From IMG/VR virus record IMGVR_UViG_3300049893_002249, positions 1-20,037 of that record: a DNA stretch of 20,037 nucleotides. One strand, 5' to 3'. Position 1 is the first letter of the stretch. Every line of letters begins with the position of its first letter. The notes below the pieces were generated by a model. The model was not told the origin of the DNA and made no database searches. It was given only the letters and a program-made list of their open reading frames with translations. Positions 3,844-20,037 of the stretch are shown here, one piece after another. Source of the DNA: a virus. A program made the translations under genes and the position numbers.

Positions 3844-3864
3844 ACGGGCGAAAGGACCGTGGCC

Positions 3865-4854
3865 ATGACCAGGATCGTCGCCGAAGTCGCGCTGGCCCAC
3901 GACGGCAGCCTAGGGGCGGCCCACGCCTATATCGACGCCGTGGCCGCCGCCGGCGCCGATGCGGTGAAGTTCCAGTGCCACCTCGCGGCCGAGGAATCGA
4001 CCGCCCGCGAGCAGTTCCGCACGCCGGCCGCTTGGAGGCAGGACGCCAGCCGCTACGACTACTGGCGGCGAACCGAGTTTACCGCGGAACAGTGGGCCGG
4101 CTTGGCGGAACATGCCCAAGAGCGCGGCCTGCTCTTCCTCTGCACGCCGTTCTCGTGCGCGGCGGTTGACCTGCTCAACCCGCTGGTACGGGCCTGGAAG
4201 ATCGGCTCTGCGGAGATCGACTTCACGGTGATGCTGGGCCACGTCGCCTCCACCGGCAAGCCGGTATTCCTTTCCTGCGGATTGGCCAGCTACCCGGCGA
4301 TCGACACCGCACTGGCCTGGCTGCGTGGCTGCGATGTGACGCTCATGCATTGCGTGAGCGAATATCCCACGCCGCCCGAGCACGTCGCCCTCAACCTCAT
4401 GGCCGAGCTTCGCGAACGCTACAGCCGCCCGGTCGGCCTATCCGACCACTCGGGCACGATCTGGCCGAGCCTATTGGCCGCCTACCAAGGCGCCACGATC
4501 GTCGAGGTCCACGTGACCTTCTCGCGCGAGTGCTATGGGCCGGACGTGCCCGCGTCGTTGACGATCGGCGAGCTGCGGCAGCTTGTCGCGGGGATTCGTT
4601 TCGTCGACCAGATGCGGCCCGTCGCCCGCGAGACGCTGCTGGCCGCCGCCGCCGAGACCCGCGAGCGGTTCGGCCGGTCGCTGGTCGCTTATCGCTCGCT
4701 TCCCGCGGGGCACGTGCTCGGCTGCGTCGACCTGCATTGCAAAAAACCACGCGGCGGATTGCCGCCGATGCGGCTGCAGACGCTGGTCGGTCGCCGCCTG
4801 CAGCGTGCCCTGGCGGCGGACGAGCCCATCACGGAGGCCGACCTTGAGCCGTAA
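3865..4854 (+). CDS. neuB: Nonulosonate (sialic acid) synthase, NeuB family
   Basis: The protein condenses phosphoenolpyruvate with an N-acetyl hexosamine (ManNAc for sialic acid) in the cytoplasm. The 329-residue length is usual. An (alpha/beta)8 barrel covers about residues 1-265, with ADAVKFQCHL (31-40), AWKIGSAEIDF (110-120), GKPVFLSCGLAS (131-142) and MHCVSEYPTPPE (161-172). It also has GLSDHS (191-196) and EVHVTF (214-219), whose H195 and H216 match the two metal-binding His of NeuB. A C-terminal SAF/antifreeze-like domain (about 270-329) fits bacterial NeuB. The ATG at 3865 has AAAGGA 8 nt upstream; the GTG at 3859 is too close to that site. The family name is firm, but the acceptor could be ManNAc or a dideoxy analogue. 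The LegB/C/H-type genes needed for legionaminate are not nearby, so Neu5Ac or Kdn-like products are favoured. Confidence 0.9.
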   Translation: MTRIVAEVALAHDGSLGAAHAYIDAVAAAGADAVKFQCHLAAEESTAREQFRTPAAWRQDASRYDYWRRTEFTAEQWAGLAEHAQERGLLFLCTPFSCAAVDLLNPLVRAWKIGSAEIDFTVMLGHVASTGKPVFLSCGLASYPAIDTALAWLRGCDVTLMHCVSEYPTPPEHVALNLMAELRERYSRPVGLSDHSGTIWPSLLAAYQGATIVEVHVTFSRECYGPDVPASLTIGELRQLVAGIRFVDQMRPVARETLLAAAAETRERFGRSLVAYRSLPAGHVLGCVDLHCKKPRGGLPPMRLQTLVGRRLQRALAADEPITEADLEP

Positions 4855-5989
4855 AGTTTGCGTGGTGCTGGTCGACCGGGCCAACTACGGTCGTCTTCAG
4901 CCGGTGATGCACGCGATTCTCGCTCATGAGTCGCTGTCGCTCCGGGTGGTCGCGGCCGGGACGATGCCCTTGGAGCGGTTTGGCCGGGCGGTCGAGATCG
5001 TGCGGGCCGACGGCTTCCCGGTCGATGCCGAGCTACACACCGAACTGGAAGGCTCGACGCCGCTGACGATGGCCAAGTCGGTAGCGTTGGCGGTCGACGA
5101 ATTCGCCACTGCCTTTGCCCGGCTGACGCCCGACCTGGTGCTGCTGATCGGCGATCGCTATGAGACGCTCGGGGCGGCGTTGGCCGCTGCCTACCTGAAC
5201 CTGCCGATCGTCCATCTCCAGGGGGGCGAAGTGAGCGGCTCGGTCGACGAGTCGGCCCGGCACGCCATCACCAAGCTGGCCCAGTTCCACGTGCCGGCCA
5301 CTGCGACCGCAGCAAAGAATCTCGTCGAGCGGCTGGGCGAGCGACCGGAGACGATCCTGACGGTCGGCTGCCCGAGCAGCGACCTGGCCCGCCAGACGCC
5401 GCGGACCTTCCCCATCGACGCGGTCAACGCCCACGGGTCGGGGCGACTTTTCGATGGCCAAGAGCGATACGTGTTGGCGGTCTTCCACCCGGTGACGACG
5501 GAATACGGCGGCGAGACGCAACAGGTCAACGCTCTCCTGGAGGCTCTGGCAGAGTTTTCCTGGCCCACGCTGCTGTTCTGGCCCAACATCGACGCCGGCG
5601 GGGAGCACGTCGCCAAGGCGATCCGCGTCTTCCGCGGACAGCACGAATCGGCCTGGCTGCGGACGCTCACGAACTTGCCCCCGACCGACTACCTGCGAGT
5701 GCTCGCCTGCGCCTCATGCGCGGTCGGCAACTCGTCCAGCTTCGTTCGCGATGCCGGCTACTTCGGCACGCCGGTCGTCCTAGTCGGTTCGCGGCAGCAG
5801 GGGCGGGAGCACGACCACCACGTGCATCCGGTCGGGGCCGCTCGGTGGTCCATCGGGCCGGGCATCCGGCTGCAACTCGCCGCCGGCCGCTATCCTGCCT
5901 CCGCCCTCTACGGCGACGGCTTCGTCGCACCGAGGATTGCCGAGCGGTTGGCGACGCTTACCACCTACGTGCAAAAGAGGCTGCGATGA
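4844..5989 (+). CDS. neuC: UDP-GlcNAc 2-epimerase (hydrolysing), NeuC family
   Basis: The enzyme would convert UDP-GlcNAc to ManNAc and UDP, supplying NeuB. The 381-residue GT-B-like fold shows DRANYGRLQP (11-20), LIGDRYETLGAAL (101-113), HLQGGEVSGSVDESARHAI (124-142), VFHPVTTE (213-220), PNIDAGGEH (247-255), GNSSSFVRDA (295-304) and GSRQQGRE (315-322). These match the substrate-binding motifs of the NeuC/LegG group; the usual Glu after GNSSS-F-x-R is Asp here. The start is a TTG at 4844, overlapping neuB by 11 nt, chosen because GGAGG lies 6 nt upstream and the protein then begins SRKVCVV, as the family does. A much longer upstream reading exists but only shadows neuB. A LegG-type substrate cannot be excluded by sequence. 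Confidence 0.88.
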   Translation: MSRKVCVVLVDRANYGRLQPVMHAILAHESLSLRVVAAGTMPLERFGRAVEIVRADGFPVDAELHTELEGSTPLTMAKSVALAVDEFATAFARLTPDLVLLIGDRYETLGAALAAAYLNLPIVHLQGGEVSGSVDESARHAITKLAQFHVPATATAAKNLVERLGERPETILTVGCPSSDLARQTPRTFPIDAVNAHGSGRLFDGQERYVLAVFHPVTTEYGGETQQVNALLEALAEFSWPTLLFWPNIDAGGEHVAKAIRVFRGQHESAWLRTLTNLPPTDYLRVLACASCAVGNSSSFVRDAGYFGTPVVLVGSRQQGREHDHHVHPVGAARWSIGPGIRLQLAAGRYPASALYGDGFVAPRIAERLATLTTYVQKRLR

Positions 5990-6927
5990 TGCCCTTGCTG
6001 ATGCTGGTTGGCGAACGCCCGAATCCTTGGGCGCGAAAGATTTTGGACGCCTCCTGGGAGTCTTATTCGATGGGCTATGTCGACCACGACACGCTCCAAC
6101 AGTTTGATGCGGTCTGGTGCGGCATGGGCCAGCGAATCCCGGCTGGCCCGCTCGATGGCCCCTACCGCTGCCAGGTGGTCGCTTGCCCGATGACCGGCAC
6201 GGAGCATATCGACCACGCGGCTCTCGCGGCGGCGGGAATCACCGTGCTCTCGCTGGCCGGTGAGGGGGACTTCCTGCGCACGATCCACGCCACCGCTGAG
6301 CACACGCTCTGCCTGATGCTGGCGGCCCTGCGGCGGCTACCGCAGGCCGTCGCCCAACGCCCGCGCTACGAGCGAGCCGAGCTACTGGGCGGCGAGCTGC
6401 ACGGCAGGACGGTCGGGATCGTCGGCGTAGGTCGCATCGGCCGGATGGTCGCGGGCTACTGCAAGGCGTTCGGCTGCCGAGTGCTGGGCTGGGACTGCGG
6501 GCACGTCCCTGACTCGATCGAACGGGTGGCCGATCTCGACGATCTGCTCTTGGAGTCGGACATCGTGAGCCTCCATCTGCCGCTGACCGGTCACACGCGC
6601 GGCCTCATCGATATGGACCGGCTGCGGATGATGAGACGCGGCTCGCTGCTGGTCAACACCGCCCGCGGTGCGCTGATCGACGAGGTGGCGTTGCTGCACG
6701 TGCTCCAGCACGGTCCGCTGGCAATGGCCGCCCTCGACGTGCTGGCCGGCGAGCCGGAGATTACCGCGGAGACTCCACTCGTGGGCTATGCCGCCGCGGC
6801 GAACAATCTGCTGCTTACGCCGCACATCGGCGGCAACACCGCGGAGTCACGCGAGGCGACTGATTGCTGGATGGCGAACAAACTGACAGGTTGGTGGAGC
6901 GAACGGCAATGCGCATCCTCGGCTTAA
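5986..6927 (+). CDS. D-isomer-specific 2-hydroxyacid dehydrogenase, NAD(P)-dependent
   Basis: The 313-residue protein has the full fold of this family, which interconverts 2-oxo and D-2-hydroxy acids. The nucleotide site is TVGIVGVGRIGRMVAGY (142-158), followed by an acidic residue at the end of the next strand (GWD, 168-170). Catalytic Arg227 lies in NTARGALIDE, Glu256 in AGEPEI and His280 in LTPHIGG. The ATG overlaps the neuC stop as ATGATG, with AGAGG 5-8 nt upstream. It lies between neuC and neuA in one operon, so its substrate is probably tied to the nonulosonate pathway, whose product is itself a 2-oxo acid. That is inference. A 3-phosphoglycerate or erythronate-type activity is equally possible from sequence. 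Confidence 0.85.
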   Translation: MMPLLMLVGERPNPWARKILDASWESYSMGYVDHDTLQQFDAVWCGMGQRIPAGPLDGPYRCQVVACPMTGTEHIDHAALAAAGITVLSLAGEGDFLRTIHATAEHTLCLMLAALRRLPQAVAQRPRYERAELLGGELHGRTVGIVGVGRIGRMVAGYCKAFGCRVLGWDCGHVPDSIERVADLDDLLLESDIVSLHLPLTGHTRGLIDMDRLRMMRRGSLLVNTARGALIDEVALLHVLQHGPLAMAALDVLAGEPEITAETPLVGYAAAANNLLLTPHIGGNTAESREATDCWMANKLTGWWSERQCASSA

Positions 6928-7580
6928 TCCCCGCCCGCGGCGGGTCGAAGCGGATACCGCACAAGAATCTGGCGTTGCTGGGAGGCCGACCGCTGGTGCT
7001 CCACGCCATGCTGGCGTTGCGTCAGTCGCGGCGTGTCGCGGCCCGCCGCATCTCGACCGACTGCCCCGAAATCGCCCGCGTCTGCCGGCCGCTGATGAGC
7101 GTGCTGATGCGGCCGGCGGAATTAGCGACGGACGACACTCCCATGCTCGCAGTGGTGCGGCACGCCTTGGAGACTCTCGGCAACTACGACGCAGTGGCGG
7201 TGATTCCGCCCTCCGCGCCGCTGACGGTCGCCCGCGACATTGACGGTACGATTGAGCTCTGGGAAGAGAGCGGAGCCGAGTCGGCCGCCTCCGTAATGCG
7301 GGTGCCGCACGCCTACCACCCGATCAAGGCCAAGCGGTTGATCGGTTCGGCCTTGCAACCCTATTGGGAGCCGGAATCGAATCGCTGGACTGCCGAGCAA
7401 TTGCCGGCGGTTTACGTGCGGAACTGCGCCGTCTACGTAACCCGCCTCTCGGCCATCGAACGGGGCCAGCTGGTCAGCGAGGATTGCGTCGGCTACGTCA
7501 TGCCAGCCGAGCGGTCGGTAGACATCAATGAGCCGATCGACCTGGAGTTGGCCCGCCTACTTTGGCAACAACGCCGCTAG
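6909..7580 (+). CDS. neuA: CMP-nonulosonate cytidylyltransferase, NeuA family
   Basis: This enzyme would activate the nonulosonate with CTP to a CMP-sugar. The 223 residues show IPARGGSKRIPHKNL (7-21), the P-loop-like CTP site, then STDCPEIA (49-56) and RPAELATDDTPM (68-79). They also show PPSAPLTVARDID (100-112), HAYHPIK (134-140), QLPAVYVRNCAVY (164-176, usually R..GA.Y) and SVDINEPIDL (203-212). Length and motif order are those of NeuA. Two points are unusual: the QPTSPL-type motif reads PPSAPL, and the DxD metal pair near the end reads D205-I-N207. The ATG overlaps the dehydrogenase by 19 nt, with GGAG 9 nt upstream. The 3' end overlaps the convergent late gene by 24 nt with no terminator seen. 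Confidence 0.87.
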   Translation: MRILGLIPARGGSKRIPHKNLALLGGRPLVLHAMLALRQSRRVAARRISTDCPEIARVCRPLMSVLMRPAELATDDTPMLAVVRHALETLGNYDAVAVIPPSAPLTVARDIDGTIELWEESGAESAASVMRVPHAYHPIKAKRLIGSALQPYWEPESNRWTAEQLPAVYVRNCAVYVTRLSAIERGQLVSEDCVGYVMPAERSVDINEPIDLELARLLWQQRR

Positions 7581-13519: not shown

Positions 13520-13918
13520 TCAGATCGTAGTCGGCATGGTCACCGCACCGGTAACCTGGATCGTAAAGTCCGCCGTGTGCAGGCCGTCGACGGTAATCGC
13601 CCCCGGATTGAATCCGGTGAGAATGCCGCCGAAGCTGTAGAACAATGTGGTAGTAGGAAAGACGACCTTCCAGGCCTTCGTGGTCGGCGTGGTCACGAGT
13701 GCCGTCAGCTTGGTATGATTGCTGGTCGGGTCATAGTTGAGCGTGCCGCTGACCGTCCCTCCCGAGGCAATGGTCGGGATGTGCGTCCGCCACGTCGAGT
13801 CCAGGTCGGTCGTCTCGACGGTGCCGACTTCCATCTGCGGCGGAGTGAGCGAAGTCACCTGCCCGATGATCGTGGAGTTCAGGATTAGCTTGGTGCCTTT
13901 GCCGGCGTAGGTTCCCAT
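13520..13918 (-). CDS. Major tail tube protein, copy 2
   Basis: The 132 residues start MGTYAGKGTKLILNSTIIGQ and show VETTDLDSTWRTHIPTIASG, LNYDPTSN, FGGILTGFNPGAITVDGLHT and ADFTIQVTG, the block order of phage tail tube proteins of the lambda gpV / HK97 type. It is a clear paralog of the gene just upstream, with roughly half the aligned positions identical by eye, mainly the VETTDLD, YDPTS and VDGLHTAD blocks. Copy 2 lacks about six residues near position 18. The ATG has GAGGGG 6 nt upstream. One copy may form the tube and the other a specialised ring or decoration. Confidence 0.8.
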   Translation of the reverse strand: MGTYAGKGTKLILNSTIIGQVTSLTPPQMEVGTVETTDLDSTWRTHIPTIASGGTVSGTLNYDPTSNHTKLTALVTTPTTKAWKVVFPTTTLFYSFGGILTGFNPGAITVDGLHTADFTIQVTGAVTMPTTI

Positions 13919-13929
13919 TGGAATCCCCT

Positions 13930-14349
13930 CTAGGGAGTGACGAAGCTGACTAGTCCCGTGATTTGCACCGTGATGTCCGCCGTGTGCAGGCCGTCGACCG
14001 TCAGAGCGCCTGGAGCGAAGCCGCTAACGATGCCGCCGAACTCGGGATAGCTGGTCGAGCCGGGCGGGAAGACGCGAAACAGCACCGTCGTCGGCGTCGT
14101 AATCAGCGTCTTCAAGCGTTCGCCGGTCGTGCTGGTAGGATCGTAGTTGATTGAGAACGTGCACACTCCTCCCGCACTCACTCCCGTCTGCCGATGAGTC
14201 CGCCAGGTCTGGTCCAGATCGGTCGTCTCGACCGAACCGGTCTCGGCAGCGTGCGGCGTAATGCTGGTTACCTGCCCCAGTACCACCAGCGTCGTCGACG
14301 CCGCGGAGTTGCAGTAGATCGTCGTGCCTTTGCCGGCAAGAATCGCCAT
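13930..14349 (-). CDS. Major tail tube protein, copy 1
   Basis: The 139 residues start MAILAGKGTTIYCNSAASTT and share VETTDLDQTWRTH, INYDPTSTTG, LKTLITTPTT, FGGIVSGFAPGALTVDGLHT and ADITVQITG with the next gene downstream. The beta-sandwich-type composition fits tail tube subunits. The ATG has GAGG 7 nt upstream. It directly follows the tail terminator gene, the usual place for the main tube gene. The tandem pair most likely arose by duplication; which copy is the structural major one cannot be read from sequence. Confidence 0.8.
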   Translation of the reverse strand: MAILAGKGTTIYCNSAASTTLVVLGQVTSITPHAAETGSVETTDLDQTWRTHRQTGVSAGGVCTFSINYDPTSTTGERLKTLITTPTTVLFRVFPPGSTSYPEFGGIVSGFAPGALTVDGLHTADITVQITGLVSFVTP

Positions 14350-14358
14350 CGCATCACC

Positions 14359-14802
14359 TCACAAACTCGGGATCGTCTCGACGTAGCGGATTGAGTAAAT
14401 CTGGCTACGCACGAAAATGCCGTCGTCCGAGCCGTCGTCGTAAGGCTCGAAGTCGTCCTTCTCATCGTCGAGCGTGATTGCCTGGATCGTCGTCGTGCTG
14501 GTGCTCCCCATCGTGCCGGCAAAGCCTTGCAGCTTGAGCCGCACCGCCTCGGCCAGCTTGTCGGCCGTTTCGTAGCTCGCCGCCCAGCAGTCGATCTGCA
14601 CGGCCGGCATCGCGGTGCCCGCCGAGCCGCCCAGGTCGTGATTGTGGCCGCCGCTCCGCCGCCAGTAGGTCAAGGCCGGCAGGCTCGTCTCGGTCCGCAG
14701 CTTGAGCGGCAGCCGCACCGGGTAGATGCGGCCCGTGCTGGTATAGGCGGTGATCGTCGCCTGGCTAACCAGGTAGTTTCGCAAGTCGCTGGAGAGGCTC
14801 AT
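14359..14802 (-). CDS. Tail terminator/completion protein, DUF3168-like
   Basis: This 147-residue protein starts MSLSSDLRNYLVSQATITAY. It has RIYPVRLPLKLRTETSLPAL, VQIDCWAASYETADKLAEAV and a C-terminal QIYSIRYVETIPSL, the plan of the DUF3168 tail completion family (alpha/beta, ring-forming cap of the tail tube). The ATG at 14800-14802 overlaps the TGA of the gp10-like gene as ATGA; the longer in-frame reading upstream is a shadow of that gene. The family call comes from motif shape and synteny between gp10-like and tail tube genes. Confidence 0.78.
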   Translation of the reverse strand: MSLSSDLRNYLVSQATITAYTSTGRIYPVRLPLKLRTETSLPALTYWRRSGGHNHDLGGSAGTAMPAVQIDCWAASYETADKLAEAVRLKLQGFAGTMGSTSTTTIQAITLDDEKDDFEPYDDGSDDGIFVRSQIYSIRYVETIPSL

Positions 14803-15326
14803 CGCAGGGGACTCGCTTTCAACAGTGCGACGCGCTGCCGCATCTCGCGGATGGCGGTCGCGGCCGCATGCTCTTCGACCCGTTTTCCGGCCCGCTCGAT
14901 AAAGTGCAGCCCGGGCACTTCCCGCCGCCCGTCCTCGGTCCGCACGCCGCGTTGCCGGCGGATGCCCAGCGGTCGCTTGCCGATCTTGTGGCCGAATTCG
15001 ACGAAGGCCCCGTAAAAGGCATCGACGCCGCGGAATCGCTCGGCCGAGGTGCTCACGGCATAGCCGATGGCCTTGCGGCTGCGACGCTTGGCCTTGATGG
15101 CGAGGCTCGCCTTGAGTAGTCCGCCGACTTTGCCGCGGCCCCGCTTGCTGGTCCACTTGCGGTTTCCGACCGGGGCGTCCTTACGGACCTCGGCCAGCAC
15201 GATCTTGGTGCCCGCGCGTAACGCCGGCCGCACGACCTTGCCGACGAGGTTGCGTGGCAGGTCACGCAGCGTCGCCCGCAGGGCGGCCATGTTGACCCAC
15301 TCGCCTTGCACTCCCAGCGTCCCCAC
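14799..15326 (-). CDS. HK97 gp10-like neck/tail completion protein
   Basis: The 175 residues begin MGTLGVQGEWVNMAALRATL and contain GTKIVLAEVRKDAPVGNRKW, GLLKASLAIKAKRRSRK and FYGAFVEFGHKIGKRP. The last is the YGxFVEFGT-type signature of the HK97 gp10 (PF04883) family. The basic central part fits. The GTG start at 15326 overlaps the head closure stop and has AAGGAG 8 nt upstream; a later ATG at residue 13 is possible. Position between head closure and tail terminator matches the standard order. Confidence 0.83.
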   Translation of the reverse strand: MGTLGVQGEWVNMAALRATLRDLPRNLVGKVVRPALRAGTKIVLAEVRKDAPVGNRKWTSKRGRGKVGGLLKASLAIKAKRRSRKAIGYAVSTSAERFRGVDAFYGAFVEFGHKIGKRPLGIRRQRGVRTEDGRREVPGLHFIERAGKRVEEHAAATAIREMRQRVALLKASPLR

Positions 15327-15646
15327 TACGGCATCTCCTTCGCCAACACGATCAGCTCCACGTTCCGCTCCTCAGTGTTCCGCGGCGGCTCCATGAAGTG
15401 GAAGGTCCGGCTTCCCCACACGATGCGCATCTTGCTGGTCACGCCGCTGCGATACCGCATCCGCACCTGGTGGGTGGCCTCCGACTGGAACTGCTGCGCA
15501 TTCCAGCGTTCCCGCCCGCTCAGCGGTTCGACCGAGGCAAAGATGTCGGAGACGGTGGACCAGGTGAGCGTAGGCTCCCCATAGCCCGTCTGGCTCTCCG
15601 TCGGGCTTTGCAAGGTCACGCGGTGGCGGAGCTGGCCGGCTTTCAT
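15326..15646 (-). CDS. Head closure / head-tail joining protein, SPP1 gp16-like
   Basis: The 106 residues start MKAGQLRHRVTLQSPTESQT, the N-terminal pattern of the phage head-tail joining family (PF05521). GYGEPTLTWSTVSDIFASVE, SGRERWNAQQFQSEATHQVR and a C-terminal NTEERNVELIVLAKEM follow. The R-HRVTLQ strand and ...W.A.. segments are characteristic. The ATG has a weak upstream CGGA. It lies 85 nt after the connector gene, a gap in which I see no other gene. Confidence 0.85.
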   Translation of the reverse strand: MKAGQLRHRVTLQSPTESQTGYGEPTLTWSTVSDIFASVEPLSGRERWNAQQFQSEATHQVRMRYRSGVTSKMRIVWGSRTFHFMEPPRNTEERNVELIVLAKEMP

Positions 15647-15731
15647 GGTTCCGTGTTCGTCGCGTCATAAAGCCGCAGGGGCCGCCGTGGGACCGTGGCA
15701 ATCTTCCGTCGGCCCGCTGCGGCCGTAAGTA

Positions 15732-16328
15732 TCAGGCGTACCTGGGGATCATGTAGGGTTCGAGCAACGCTTGGACCGTATTGGGGAGTGTGGCTAGGTT
15801 GTCCGGGCCGACCGGCTCACGGAATTCATACAGCATCGACACCTGATAACGAATCGCGTTGAGGATCGGCTGCGGCACGCTGGTCGAGCCGGCGTAGCCG
15901 TTGTCGAAGCGGACCTCGACGGCGTTGATCTGCTCCCGCGTGTCGGGCCACGTATCGCCGTAGCGGGGCGTGATCCGACCAGGCAAGCTATCGGTGTCGA
16001 CGAGGTAGTCGGTCGACGCCATCGTGGCGGTCGTGCCGTCCGGCTTGACGTAGCCGATGGCACTGATGCTCCGCAGCGGCGGCAGCGGCAGGCGAATCTC
16101 CCACTCCGGGAAACTGTCCATCCGCAGCCGGTAGCTGGCCGGCATCAGTTGCATTTGCAGCCGATGCTCCACTTGCCGCGTCGCCGCCGCGATCAGCCGC
16201 TGGATGTCGGCGTCATGATCGGTCGTCGTCGCGGTGATACGCAGATGGTCCTTGGCCTCGGCCAGCGTCAACGGGTCGCCCGTCGTGGCGGTGGTGAGCG
16301 TCGGATACTGCGGGCCGAAGGTACGCAT
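15732..16328 (-). CDS. Head-tail connector protein, gp6/phiE125 gp8-like
   Basis: About 198 residues with DPLTLAEAKDHLRITATTTD and HDADIQRLIAAATRQVEHRL near the start. This is the helical LxEAKxHLR..DxxLI..A...VE pattern of phage gp6-like head-tail connectors. YLVDTDSLPGRITPRYGD and AIRYQVSMLYEFREPVG follow. The start is uncertain: ATG at 16328 lies 2 nt after the upstream stop; GTG at 16346 would add six residues and overlap the upstream gene. Neither has a strong ribosome site. It would assemble under the portal to link head and tail. Confidence 0.83.
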   Translation of the reverse strand: MRTFGPQYPTLTTATTGDPLTLAEAKDHLRITATTTDHDADIQRLIAAATRQVEHRLQMQLMPASYRLRMDSFPEWEIRLPLPPLRSISAIGYVKPDGTTATMASTDYLVDTDSLPGRITPRYGDTWPDTREQINAVEVRFDNGYAGSTSVPQPILNAIRYQVSMLYEFREPVGPDNLATLPNTVQALLEPYMIPRYA

Positions 16329-16330
16329 GG

Positions 16331-17134
16331 TCAAAACCACTGCCACCAGTATTCCATGTCGTCAATCGCGCCACGGATCGCCGCCGCGTTGGTGGCGTGC
16401 TGCTGGGCCTGCTGCTCGTGCTGCGCGAGGCGCGCGTGCAGCTCTTTCTTGCGGGCTTCCCACTTCTTCCGCAGAGCATCGTTGGTGCCGTCGAAGGCGT
16501 AGAGCCGGCCCACCTTGCAAAGATCGGATTCCTCCGGGATTCCGACCTTGATGCCCGCTCCGACGGCCAGCCCGATAAAGTATTCGCAACTGGGCCGCTG
16601 GTGCTGGTACTCCCCGTTCTGCCCCCGCACCGGATCGCTCTGGGCCATGTTGACGCCGAAGACGCCGATCTCGGCGCACCCCTCGTCGATCGCCATCGCC
16701 AACATGAAGCTGATGCTGTTGGTGAAATACGACCCGAACTTGTCGAGGTATTGCCGCAGCGGGTAGCTCTTGGCGTGCGGCAGTTCGGGGTGCGTGTCCT
16801 GGATGTAGAGCGGCTTGCCGTGGTCCTCTTTGAGCCAGCTCCAGAAGCCGGGAGCCACCTTGGCCCACCGCTCGCGGTTCGCCTCCAGCGGGTGCAACTC
16901 GAACCAGCGATCCCACCGCTTCATCAGCTTGGCGCCGCAGCCCAGCCCCCATATTTCCCACGACGGATCGTCGTAGGGCACGAGGTGCTGGCTATCGGGG
17001 GCCTTGCCGACGATGGCAATCCGCCGCCCGGTCCTCAACTGCGGTAGTTCCACCAGGCTTGCGGCGGTCGGCTCAGCGGGTTCGTATTCGGCGAGACGGT
17101 TGACCACCGCCTGCCCGTTGTCAGAATCAGCCAC
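16331..17134 (-). CDS. Phage GKAP-motif Rossmann-like protein, possible glycosyltransferase relative
   Basis: The 267-residue product has RRIAIVGKAPDSQHLVPYDD (37-56), SWEIWGLGCG, KRWDRWFELHP (72-82), FTNSISFMLAMAIDEGCAEI (137-156), VFGVNMA (158-164) and CEYFIGLAVGAGIKVGIPEE (183-202). It ends in a coiled coil (about 222-256). I recognise this arrangement from uncharacterised proteins in many phage head-tail modules. The N-terminal G-x-x-P turn and the middle SG/NS...A...G..EI..G motif recall DUF115 and GT42 sialyltransferases, but this is only by eye. The GTG start at 17134 was chosen because GGAGG lies 7 nt upstream. It follows the methyltransferase by 13 nt, suggesting a modification pair. 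Confidence 0.7.
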   Translation of the reverse strand: MADSDNGQAVVNRLAEYEPAEPTAASLVELPQLRTGRRIAIVGKAPDSQHLVPYDDPSWEIWGLGCGAKLMKRWDRWFELHPLEANRERWAKVAPGFWSWLKEDHGKPLYIQDTHPELPHAKSYPLRQYLDKFGSYFTNSISFMLAMAIDEGCAEIGVFGVNMAQSDPVRGQNGEYQHQRPSCEYFIGLAVGAGIKVGIPEESDLCKVGRLYAFDGTNDALRKKWEARKKELHARLAQHEQQAQQHATNAAAIRGAIDDMEYWWQWF

Positions 17135-17147
17135 GATGATTCCTCCG

Positions 17148-17789
17148 TTAGAGAAACGAGACGATTCGATAGACGCCACTCAGTTGCCGGTAGGGTCGGC
17201 AGGAAGGCCAGGGGAACTTGGCCTCGCAGAGCAACTCCTGGTATCGCCGCGGAGTGCGGGCGAACTCGGCCGCGTCTTCACGCTGCCCTCCGTGGGCATG
17301 GCAGGCGGTGGCGAAGAGCAGTCCGTTGGGCTTGAGCACTCGCCGCATTTCATGCAGAACGGCCAGGCACTCCGCGTCGTCGAAGTGCTCGAGAAGGCCG
17401 ATCGAATACACGCAGTCAAACGACTCCGAGGCGTACCCTGTCTGCCGCACGTCCGCCAGGCACTTTGTGATCGGCGGCAGTCGAAACCGCTCGCAGTTCC
17501 GGTCGCACAGCTCGAAGCCATCGAGCGACAGGTCGACCATCTCCACCTCGCAACCGCGGCTGGCCAGGTACATCGCCGTCGTGCCGCGGCCGGCGCCAAA
17601 CTCGACGTAGCGGGCGGTGGCTGGCAGCCGCAGCGCCAGCTCGAACAGGTCGAGGAAGTAGAAGCGTTGCAGCCGCTCGTGGTCGGTGCGCGGCTCCTGC
17701 GGCGTGTAGAGGCAGGCGTTGGGCCCTTGGCCGATGGCCTGCCACTTCTCCGACCAGAGTTCGGGTTGTCCTGCGGTGGCGGTGGTCAT
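17148..17789 (-). CDS. Class I SAM-dependent methyltransferase
   Basis: The 213 residues carry motif I as YVEFGAGRGTTAMYLASRG (61-79), the acidic ribose-binding end VDLS (85-88), a DVRQTGY motif II-like turn, FDCVYSIGLLEHF (124-136) and VLKPNGLLFATACH. This is the pattern of small-molecule or sugar/protein methyltransferases (Methyltransf_11 type), with no DNA target domain and no DPPY/NPPY motif, so a DNA base methylase is unlikely. The ATG overlaps the upstream stop codon by one base. It sits in the head module between a small structural gene and the GKAP protein; a role in modifying a glycan or a virion protein is inference. Confidence 0.83.
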   Translation of the reverse strand: MTTATAGQPELWSEKWQAIGQGPNACLYTPQEPRTDHERLQRFYFLDLFELALRLPATARYVEFGAGRGTTAMYLASRGCEVEMVDLSLDGFELCDRNCERFRLPPITKCLADVRQTGYASESFDCVYSIGLLEHFDDAECLAVLHEMRRVLKPNGLLFATACHAHGGQREDAAEFARTPRRYQELLCEAKFPWPSCRPYRQLSGVYRIVSFL

Positions 17790-18256
17790 CAGGTGGTCAC
17801 CACGACAGTCGTGCCAGCCAAGCCGCTGCCGCCCAGGCCGGCGATGGCCCAGGCCGAGGTGCTGATGCCGATCAGCACGACGTGGTCGTGCTTGTTCGGC
17901 AGGTTCACCAATCGGTCGCTGGTACCGATGACCGTGTTCGTCGAGTTCAACACCACCTGGTGGCTGTTCGCCGCGTTGGCGGTCGAGACGCCGATCGAGC
18001 TGATGATCGCCATGCAGCCGGCGACCGGGGCGGCTAGCGTGACCGTGATCCGGGTCGTCCCGTTTACGGTCATGATGCCGTGATTCGGCATCGTGCTGCT
18101 AGCGGTGGTGGCGAAGACCGGCATCGTCAGGTAGCTGCCCGACTGCATGGCGATCGAGCCGCCGCTCTCGACCGTGATGACGCCGCTCGACGCGACCACC
18201 AGCTCATTGCCGCCCTGCTTGCGATAGATGCAAGGCTGGTAGGATTGATCGGCCAT
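17789..18256 (-). CDS. Small head-module structural protein, unknown family
   Basis: The 155 residues begin MADQSYQPCIYRKQGGNELV, then VASSGVITVESGGSIAMQSG, a beta-arch-like repeat of short V/I and Gly residues. They continue to GIMTVNGTTRITVTLAAPVA and the C-terminal AWAIAGLGGSGLAGTTVVVT. I have seen such YRKQGG..LVVASGG starts in phage head regions but know no function. It probably belongs to the virion (decoration or fibre-like). The ATG has GGAG 8 nt upstream. It lies 74 nt after the second of two paralogous head-region genes. Confidence 0.65.
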   Translation of the reverse strand: MADQSYQPCIYRKQGGNELVVASSGVITVESGGSIAMQSGSYLTMPVFATTASSTMPNHGIMTVNGTTRITVTLAAPVAGCMAIISSIGVSTANAANSHQVVLNSTNTVIGTSDRLVNLPNKHDHVVLIGISTSAWAIAGLGGSGLAGTTVVVTT

Positions 18257-18330: not shown

Positions 18331-18765
18331 TCAGGTTGTGGTCGTGCCGACTCCGTAGGTCACTTGGGCCACGTCCGACGAGCTGGCCGGCTTGGTGAAG
18401 GCGCCGTAACGAAACGCCGAAACGCAAATCACTGTCGCCGTACTGTTCAGCGTCACCCGCGGTTGTATCCACCGCTGGGCCGGATGGTGGATGTCCAGCA
18501 CGGCCGCCTTGTTCAGGCTGGTGCTGGTTGCGGTCGCCACCGAGCCGCCGATGCGGATCGGCGTGAACGGTCCGCCCACAGCGGTCGATCCATTGGCCTC
18601 CAGCACCAGCGTGTAGTTGCCGCTGGCCGTCGAGCTGAACTGGCCGACGATCATCACCCCTTCGAAGCCCGACAGGTCCATGACCGCGAAGTCGGTCTGA
18701 TCGTAGGCCACGCCAATCTCCGGGCTGATGACCGGCGAGAATTTCAGCTGGTGGATCAAGGCCAT
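18331..18765 (-). CDS. Head-region paralog B, possible decoration protein
   Basis: The 144-residue Ser/Thr/Ala-rich beta protein starts MALIHQLKFSPVISPEIGVA and has a MDLSGFEGVMIVGQFSSTAS segment, KAAVLDIHHPAQRWIQPRVT and VSAFRYGAFTKPAS. The order and spacing of those blocks match the gene upstream: D..G..G......T, then LDV/LDI..P..R...V, then V.A..YGA. The ATG overlaps the upstream stop as TGATG. Position directly after the capsid gene suggests a head decoration or fibre protein; no family is recognised. Confidence 0.65.
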   Translation of the reverse strand: MALIHQLKFSPVISPEIGVAYDQTDFAVMDLSGFEGVMIVGQFSSTASGNYTLVLEANGSTAVGGPFTPIRIGGSVATATSTSLNKAAVLDIHHPAQRWIQPRVTLNSTATVICVSAFRYGAFTKPASSSDVAQVTYGVGTTTT

Positions 18766-19196
18766 CAGGTAGTCGCTCCCGAGCCGTGCATCTCCGCCGC
18801 CACGTCGGTCGAGCCGCTGGTGGAGGGCAGACCACGCGCCCCGTAGAGGATCGCCATCACGCCAGCGATGTTGCCGGCGGCAGTCGAATTGTGCGTCACC
18901 TTCACGTAGCGGTAGGCCGGGCGATAGACGTCCAGCACCAGCAGGCGATTGGCGACGGTACTCTGCGCCGTCAGGCTGGTGGAGTTGTACTGGAGCTGGC
19001 CAAAGGTGCCGCCCGTCGCCGTCGAGCCGACCGCCTTGATGTTCACCGCGGAGGTGGTGACGCCGACCGTGGCGACAAAGCAGACGCCATCCCAGCCGGC
19101 CATGTCGATCTCGTCCAAGGCGGAATCCGCCGTGGTCGTCGCCCCCGCCACCGGGCCGAGCAGTTGGAGGAACTTGACTCGCTTCGCAAGGTTCAT
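18765..19196 (-). CDS. Head-region paralog A, possible decoration protein
   Basis: The 143 residues open MNLAKRVKFLQLLGPVAGAT, then EIDMAGWDGVCFVATVG, RLLVLDVYRPAYRYVKVTHN and AGVMAILYGARGLPSTS. It shares its layout with the next gene downstream and looks like a tandem duplicate. GGGGAG lies 7 nt upstream of the ATG. It directly follows the major capsid gene by 30 nt. A decoration protein role is suggested by place, small size and beta-rich composition only. Confidence 0.65.
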   Translation of the reverse strand: MNLAKRVKFLQLLGPVAGATTTADSALDEIDMAGWDGVCFVATVGVTTSAVNIKAVGSTATGGTFGQLQYNSTSLTAQSTVANRLLVLDVYRPAYRYVKVTHNSTAAGNIAGVMAILYGARGLPSTSGSTDVAAEMHGSGATT

Positions 19197-19226: not shown

Positions 19227-20037
19227 TTAGGCCAAGGTCACACGGGTAAAGGCTTCGGCCTTGACCGGGGCGCCGTCGAGCTTCATGCGGCTGACGAACG
19301 TCACCTGGTTGGTCCGCACCAGCAGCTCGTCGGCCCGCACGATCTCCATGTCGAGGGCGTCAACGATCCAGTACCACTGGAAGTCGCCGACGATGCCGAC
19401 GTAGAGTCCGGTGGTAAAGGTGCTCGGCGCCCACTCGCTCATCACCACGGGGCGGCCCAGGATCGAATCCGGCTGGCCGGGAGTCAGGCCTGGCGCCCAG
19501 AGGTACTGGCCATCGCCGGTCTTGAGCTTGCGAATCTGCTTCAAGGCCGTGCGGTGGAAGAGCCACGTCGCCCGAGCCTGGTAAGTGCTCTTCAAGTTGT
19601 AGAGGCACTCGATCAGGTTGTCGGACTGGATCGTGGTGGTGGTGTTCCCGGTCGACACGTCGCGGGCGGTCGAGATGCCGTCCGCCGAAGCCGTAAACAG
19701 CCCCAGCGGTTGCTGGGCACCCGAGCCGGTTAGAAAGGCCGCTTCCTCCGCCTCGGCAGCGTCGCGGGCCAGCTCCTCGCGGACCAACGCCTCGGGGTTT
19801 AGGGCCGACATCCGCAGCAGGTCGCGGCTGACGATGATCTCCCCAGCCAGGTAGTGCGGGGTCAGCCGCCGCTGCCCGAAGCGGAGCGAGTCGTCGGCCG
19901 AGGTGGTCTGCACCTCCTGCGACCAGTTGAAGGTATCGGCGACCGCGGTCCGGGTCGGGGCGACCATCGACACCGCCCCGGTCACGCGGAACTTGCGGGC
20001 CAGCCGGCGGATGTCGACCTGATCGTCGATGTTCTTG
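19227..20037 (-). CDS. Major capsid protein, HK97 fold (5' end cut by window)
   Basis: About 270 C-terminal residues are visible; the reading frame is open to the window edge, so the N terminus (and any delta domain) is missing. VTGAVSMVAPTRTAVAD, LTPHYLAGEIIVSRDLLRMS, AAFLTGSGAQQPLGLFTASA and the C-terminal LLVRTNQVTFVSRMKLDGAP are the typical motifs of HK97 gp5-like capsids. FLTGSG-Q-PLG is the most telling. A GTG inside the frame at 19985 is not the true start. Portal, protease and terminase genes would be expected beyond the right edge. Confidence 0.93.
   Translation of the reverse strand, partial: KNIDDQVDIRRLARKFRVTGAVSMVAPTRTAVADTFNWSQEVQTTSADDSLRFGQRRLTPHYLAGEIIVSRDLLRMSALNPEALVREELARDAAEAEEAAFLTGSGAQQPLGLFTASADGISTARDVSTGNTTTTIQSDNLIECLYNLKSTYQARATWLFHRTALKQIRKLKTGDGQYLWAPGLTPGQPDSILGRPVVMSEWAPSTFTTGLYVGIVGDFQWYWIVDALDMEIVRADELLVRTNQVTFVSRMKLDGAPVKAEAFTRVTLA

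Follow-up and report, generated by a model that had tools for sequence, protein, structure and literature searches.

The window analyzed here is the whole 20,037-base stretch of the IMG/VR virus record IMGVR_UViG_3300049893_002249. Positions 16331-17789 are occupied by two minus-strand open reading frames (ORFs), encoding a 267-aa protein and a methyltransferase. Both belong to a minus-strand operon with the order capsid, two paralogous small proteins, third small protein, methyltransferase, 267-aa gene, Ad1, Hc1, Ne1 and two major tail proteins. A preliminary description of this DNA had placed the two genes in the middle of structural genes, and their neighbors (HK97-type capsid, Ad1, Hc1, Ne1 and the major tail proteins) bear this out. 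The genes around the 267-aa gene are:

15732-16328, minus strand: head-tail adaptor Ad1 (phrog_442, E 9.9e-26)
16331-17134, minus strand: 267-aa GT42/Maf-fold protein, putative nonulosonic-acid transferase (ORF open from 17179)
17148-17789, minus strand: class I SAM-dependent methyltransferase (Methyltransf_11/25), putative accessory
17789-18256, minus strand: 155-aa Ser/Thr-rich small head-module protein (S+T 23.9%)
18331-18765, minus strand: cement/decoration-like protein, candidate acceptor (paralogue of 18765-19196; S+T 22%)
18765-19196, minus strand: cement/decoration-like jellyroll protein by predicted structure, candidate acceptor (S+T 20%)
19227-19985, minus strand: HK97-type major capsid protein (PF05065, E 1.5e-53), with coordinates as scanned; the gene may reach or pass the window edge

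The stop codon of 17789-18256 overlaps the methyltransferase ATG in the sequence TGATG, and a 2-nt gap separates the stop codon of the 267-aa gene from the Ad1 ATG (junction TGACCATG). We placed the start of the 267-aa gene at GTG 17134, which is preceded by a Shine-Dalgarno sequence (AACGGAGGAATCATCGTG) and yields exactly 267 residues. Residue numbers below follow the 282-residue long ORF; subtracting 15 gives the numbering of the 267-aa protein. Elsewhere, the window carries a tandem pair of major tail protein genes that are 52% identical to each other (13520-14349), and a 60-base tandem repeat built of 6-mers (1822-2054; 3.8 copies, 91% match) that encodes Gly/Tyr/Ser- or Ala/Pro/Thr-rich ORFs, depending on strand.

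The 267-aa protein matches no family in Pfam, PHROG or NCBIfam scans, and a single-sequence search of the PDB gave no match. Relatives are encoded by 67 IMG/VR viral contigs, one cultured phage and two Bacillota MAG contigs, and because so many viral contigs encode one, the reading frame is not a chance ORF. The MAG relatives (loci L119 and L120) were recovered by a second search of genome contigs, a first search having found none, and neither locus shows sialic-acid (neu) genes within the stretch examined. Four queries against 50,697 phage records found the family in a single record, and it is this near-absence from cultured phages that has left the family overlooked. The one cultured member, XAN61349.1 of Microcystis phage Mvi-Yong1342-1 (PP496355.1), is a full family member, 33-37% identical, whose gene (L005 7914-8717) adjoins terminase genes. 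It is annotated as a "type 11 methyltransferase"; our scans gave no methyltransferase match, and the label is likely a misannotation. Some records encode two family paralogues.

The GKAP and NS...A...G..EI..G motifs previously read from the sequence are both present in the 267-aa protein, as VGKAPDS and NSISFMLAMAIDEGCAEIGVFG. In an alignment of 45 family members, W77, R88, G175, E190 and G209 are invariant, and D71, E75, H96, S/T155, D177, Y191, Q194 and R195 are conserved. Residue 177, within a G-x-D motif, is D in 38 of the 45 relatives and N in the window protein. H96 is the only conserved histidine (39/45); no His-rich column follows residue 175, a region that holds the invariant E190 and the conserved Y191, Q194 and R195.

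We modeled the 267-aa protein with AlphaFold (AF2; mean pLDDT 85.9, pTM 0.79), obtaining a Rossmann-type domain at about residues 50-222 followed by a long C-terminal helix. Foldseek ranks seven GT42 chains (CstII and CstI) first, with E-values of 1e-5 to 4e-4 and probability 1.0. With VIA-align 2, the best match is the flagellin glycosyltransferase Maf (5mu5; Z 10.8, 4.0 Å over 173 residues), followed by GT42 enzymes at Z 9.1-10.0 (CstII: Z 10.0, 3.7 Å over 161 residues), and human GT29 sialyltransferases score about 7. A family profile searched against PDB sequences likewise returns GT42 sialyltransferases as its top seven matches, at weak E-values of 0.024-0.17, and the alignments fall on the NS...A...G..EI..G stretch. 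The assignment of the predicted structure to the GT42/Maf fold class is thus well supported, and to this extent the likeness to GT42 and DUF115 cores noted earlier by eye holds at the level of fold.

The likeness does not extend to family thresholds or to the GT42 active site. None of the 45 members matches Pfam CST-I (PF06002) above cut-off (best E 0.18, one member), nor does any match PF01973 (MptE-like/DUF115; best E 0.12, one member). An hhalign comparison with 20 bacterial Maf proteins was not significant (E 0.47), though it aligned the same motif, and a PF06002 search of 398 Bacillota genomes and 14 controls found none. The catalytic base of CstII is H188 (PMC4202792); by sequence alignment rather than superposition, this residue has no counterpart after the G-x-D motif. 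By these criteria, the 267-aa protein is best regarded as belonging to a separate, unnamed family outside GT42 and Maf, one that has their fold and probably works in a similar manner.

Since transferases have this fold in common with MptE and thiamine pyrophosphokinase, fold alone cannot separate a transferase from a pyrophosphokinase. The protein could be a diphosphokinase or other nucleotide-using enzyme on the MptE/thiamine pyrophosphokinase side, with no role in sialic-acid chemistry. The VIA-align 2 scores of the MptE HPPK (8sd5; Z 9.8) and thiamine pyrophosphokinases (Z 9.0) lie close behind the top matches, and the lack of a CST-I match above cut-off and of a GT42 base histidine also favors it. 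We nevertheless consider this reading unlikely: in Foldseek, the first match after the seven GT42 chains is 100-fold weaker, and a pterin or thiamine enzyme would not be expected to show the association with CMP-sugar synthetase and NeuB genes described below.

The window encodes all three genes of a sialic-acid-type (nonulosonic acid) pathway (NeuC, NeuB and CMP-transferase) on the strand opposite the 267-aa gene and 9 kb from it:

3859-4854, plus strand: neuB, nonulosonate synthase with SAF domain (PF03102, E 4.6e-61; PF08666; TIGR03569, E 1.5e-77)
4850-5989, plus strand: neuC, hydrolysing UDP-GlcNAc 2-epimerase (TIGR03568, 315.9 bits; cut-off 235.9)
5986-6927, plus strand: D-2-hydroxyacid dehydrogenase (PF02826, E 1.8e-47)
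6909-7580, plus strand: CMP-nonulosonate synthetase, NeuA/PseF-like (PF02348, E 3.4e-18; TIGR03584 PseF, E 6.7e-27)

NeuC scores above its NCBIfam equivalog cut-off; NeuB and NeuA score above the Pfam but below the NCBIfam equivalog cut-offs. The synthetases of family-bearing records are closer to PseF than to KdsB. The dehydrogenase gene, which overlaps neuC and lies between it and the CMP-transferase gene, is not a usual sialic-acid gene; it may mark an unusual nonulosonic acid, and a weak relative occurs in the neu cluster of locus L073.

We compared the occurrence of neu genes in records that encode the 267-aa family with that in 50 control records of at least 9 kb that share the capsid of locus L076 or the Microcystis phage terminase. 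NeuB (PF03102) was found in 11 of 50 records with the family and CTP_transf_3 (PF02348) in 16 of 50; among the controls, NeuB, CTP_transf_3 and the family were each found in one of 50, the same single record. Once records with the family had been grouped at 70% identity (39 clusters; control contigs were left unclustered), NeuB was present in 10 of 39 clusters versus 0 of 49 controls without the family (Fisher p 1.4e-4), the CMP-sugar synthetase in 12 versus 0 (p 1.9e-5), and either gene in 13 versus 0 (p 6.8e-6), where the p-values treat contigs as independent, an assumption that shared ancestry weakens. The control contigs are the longer ones, making the comparison conservative. The family's distribution is thus correlated with that of neu genes, lending statistical backing to a link that the preliminary description had offered as speculative. 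Neu-positive members are scattered over the family tree (at least 8 label changes, 4 forced), and in a reverse test the family was found in 7 of 12 contigs chosen by window-like NeuB, most of the others being short. In the 115-kb record G068, which contains locus L134, a TGA stop lies inside the NeuB match, possibly reflecting a pseudogene, a frameshift or recoding.

The earlier caveat that the family also occurs in phages without neu genes proved justified as well. No neu gene was found on the contig in 26 of the 39 clusters, including several contigs longer than 30 kb, and the complete genome of Microcystis phage Mvi-Yong1342-1 contains neither NeuB nor a CMP-transferase. A NeuB query from L076 found only three matches in the 50,697 phage records, and in two INPHARED records that encode NeuB, the 22 kb surrounding that gene contain no member of the family. 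The many relatives without neu genes, the 9-kb distance and opposite strand of the window's own neu cluster, and the methyltransferases and other genes that also land nearby would fit a different reading, hitchhiking, in which cargo genes tend to settle between the capsid/cement genes and Ad1 while the neu genes supply some other transferase. We find this quite unlikely, given that neu genes are found in none of the 49 related phages without the 267-aa family, that the synthetase and transferase genes overlap in the L025/L029/L038 group, and that our analysis of the window identified no further transferase.

The gene's position recurs across related loci. In 24 of 44 family loci we detected a head or packaging gene no more than 4 kb away, always on the same strand, and the putative transferase gene usually has capsid or cement-like genes upstream and Ad1 downstream. 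Locus L103 has the window's order (cement-like gene, methyltransferase, transferase, Ad1). In L024 and L076 the order is capsid, cement-like gene, transferase, synthetase, methyltransferase, neuB, Ad1, and in L017 and L073 it is neuB, methyltransferase, neuC, capsid, transferase, methyltransferase, Ad1. The synthetase gene abuts or overlaps the transferase gene in L025, L029, L030, L033-L038 and L040. The cement-like gene is retained where relatives of the capsid occur without the transferase, so the transferase and its helpers seem to have been inserted, as accessories, into an otherwise standard head module. One cassette, L074 48-5128, lies immediately upstream of portal and capsid and combines neuB, a short-chain dehydrogenase, a CMP-transferase, a transketolase-like gene, a second family paralogue and an FkbM methyltransferase; its content suggests a different nonulosonic acid route. 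Locus L083 encodes an 851-aa large terminase ORF (14067-16622) with what appears by eye to be an intein-like insertion (CLIAGTMVSTPTG...).

This position also bears on the target of the enzyme. Phages often carry surface-modifying transferases, and some family cassettes include additional sugar genes, among them a GT2 and a pyruvyl transferase; the nonulosonic acid might accordingly be placed on the host surface, for lysogenic conversion or superinfection exclusion, instead of on the virion. A gene inside the late head operon and tight with Ad1 is, however, expected to be expressed during assembly, and we judge a host-surface role distinctly improbable. The 267-aa gene lies in a late head operon, and its predicted fold and gene company suggest that this operon includes a phage-encoded transferase.

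The adjacent 213-aa protein (17148-17789) matches Methyltransf_11, Methyltransf_25 and Methyltransf_23 far above cut-off (E 1e-14 to 2e-17) and contains the glycine-rich motif VEFGAGRG. It lacks the DNA-methyltransferase motif [DNS]PP[YFW], in agreement with its initial description as a non-DNA methyltransferase. Methyltransferases recur in family cassettes, but their enrichment is not significant (5/49 vs 2/49, p 0.22), so the link is not established beyond the gene order common with L103. We regard the protein as a recurrent accessory, for which the sugar capping suggested earlier is a possible role.

Among the small head-module proteins, 18765-19196 is predicted by AF2 to form a jellyroll (pLDDT 75.7). 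Many jellyrolls match it in Foldseek, one of them the BPP-1 cementing protein (3j4u_H, E 1.7e-3), and its VIA matches include capsid proteins of phages Milano and 7-7-1. As DALI-like Z-scores of 8-10 are common for jellyrolls, position and the BPP-1 match mainly carry the cement reading. An iterated HMM search unites 18331-18765 and 18765-19196 in one family, and relatives of 17789-18256 occur in loci of the same phage group, including phages without the transferase. Its position makes 18765-19196, or its paralogue, a candidate acceptor.

Overall, we regard the 267-aa protein as a probable nonulosonic acid transferase if its target is left open, and we lean slightly toward one directed at the virion. 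In the model we propose, the protein would be a stripped-down, cytoplasmic glycosyltransferase of GT42/Maf (DUF115) fold that probably needs no metal, with the invariant E190 or the conserved H96 as candidate catalytic base. As donor it would use a CMP-activated nonulosonic acid that the products of the phage neuC, neuB and neuA genes generate in the cytoplasm. Head proteins encoded in this operon would receive the sugar directly on Ser/Thr hydroxyls, the likeliest targets being either the jellyroll cement-like proteins or the capsid protein, with a timing like that of Maf acting on flagellin before export, and the adjacent methyltransferase would probably methylate the sugar or its acceptor. 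C. botulinum Maf accepts both CMP-Neu5Ac and CMP-Kdo (PMC11339370), so relatives without neu genes could use host donors; in these phages the donor would probably be host-supplied, possibly CMP-Kdo. Our broadest proposal, held tentatively and a shade below an even call, is that a widespread, unnamed phage family attaches nonulosonic acids to the head proteins of virions and that some of these phages encode the whole CMP-sugar pathway themselves, which would make a self-contained virion sialylation cassette.

To our knowledge, few phages have been found to carry covalently bound sugars on their particles, and our literature search found no description of nonulosonic acids on phage virions. If the family sialylates heads, this would explain the sialic-acid genes of some uncultured phages, provide a minimal enzyme of the Maf/GT42 type as a new tool for protein sialylation, and raise the question of how a negatively charged sugar coat affects particle stability or adsorption. 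The family offers a system of two or three genes that lends itself to direct testing.

Three known systems invite comparison. Maf enzymes draw on CMP-nonulosonic acids and can place Neu5Ac as well as Kdo on Ser/Thr of proteins (PMC11339370), and the central MAF_flag10/DUF115 domain of Maf (PF01973; 5mu5) has the S...A...G..I...G.D.A motif in common with the phage protein. The phage protein, however, consists of one domain and a C-terminal helix without the N- and C-terminal domains of Maf, its family has no PF01973 match above cut-off, and its gene is linked to capsid genes whereas that of Maf is linked to flagellin. The GT42 enzymes (CstI/CstII and P. multocida 9c08; PF06002) are the top Foldseek and PDB profile matches, and the family's conserved S/T155 aligns with S132 of CstII. 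They differ in acting on lipooligosaccharide, while the phage gene sits in a head module and its family has neither a PF06002 match above cut-off nor the conserved base histidine. The third comparison is with mycobacteriophages Che8 and Rita, for which PMC11256854 (citing Freeman et al. 2023) describes phage-encoded transferases and glycans attached covalently to the capsid protein. In the related phage Maravista, the transferase genes are said to lie near the genome end, and no nonulosonic-acid pathway is mentioned; in the window, the putative transferase gene lies within the head operon of a phage that encodes such a pathway.
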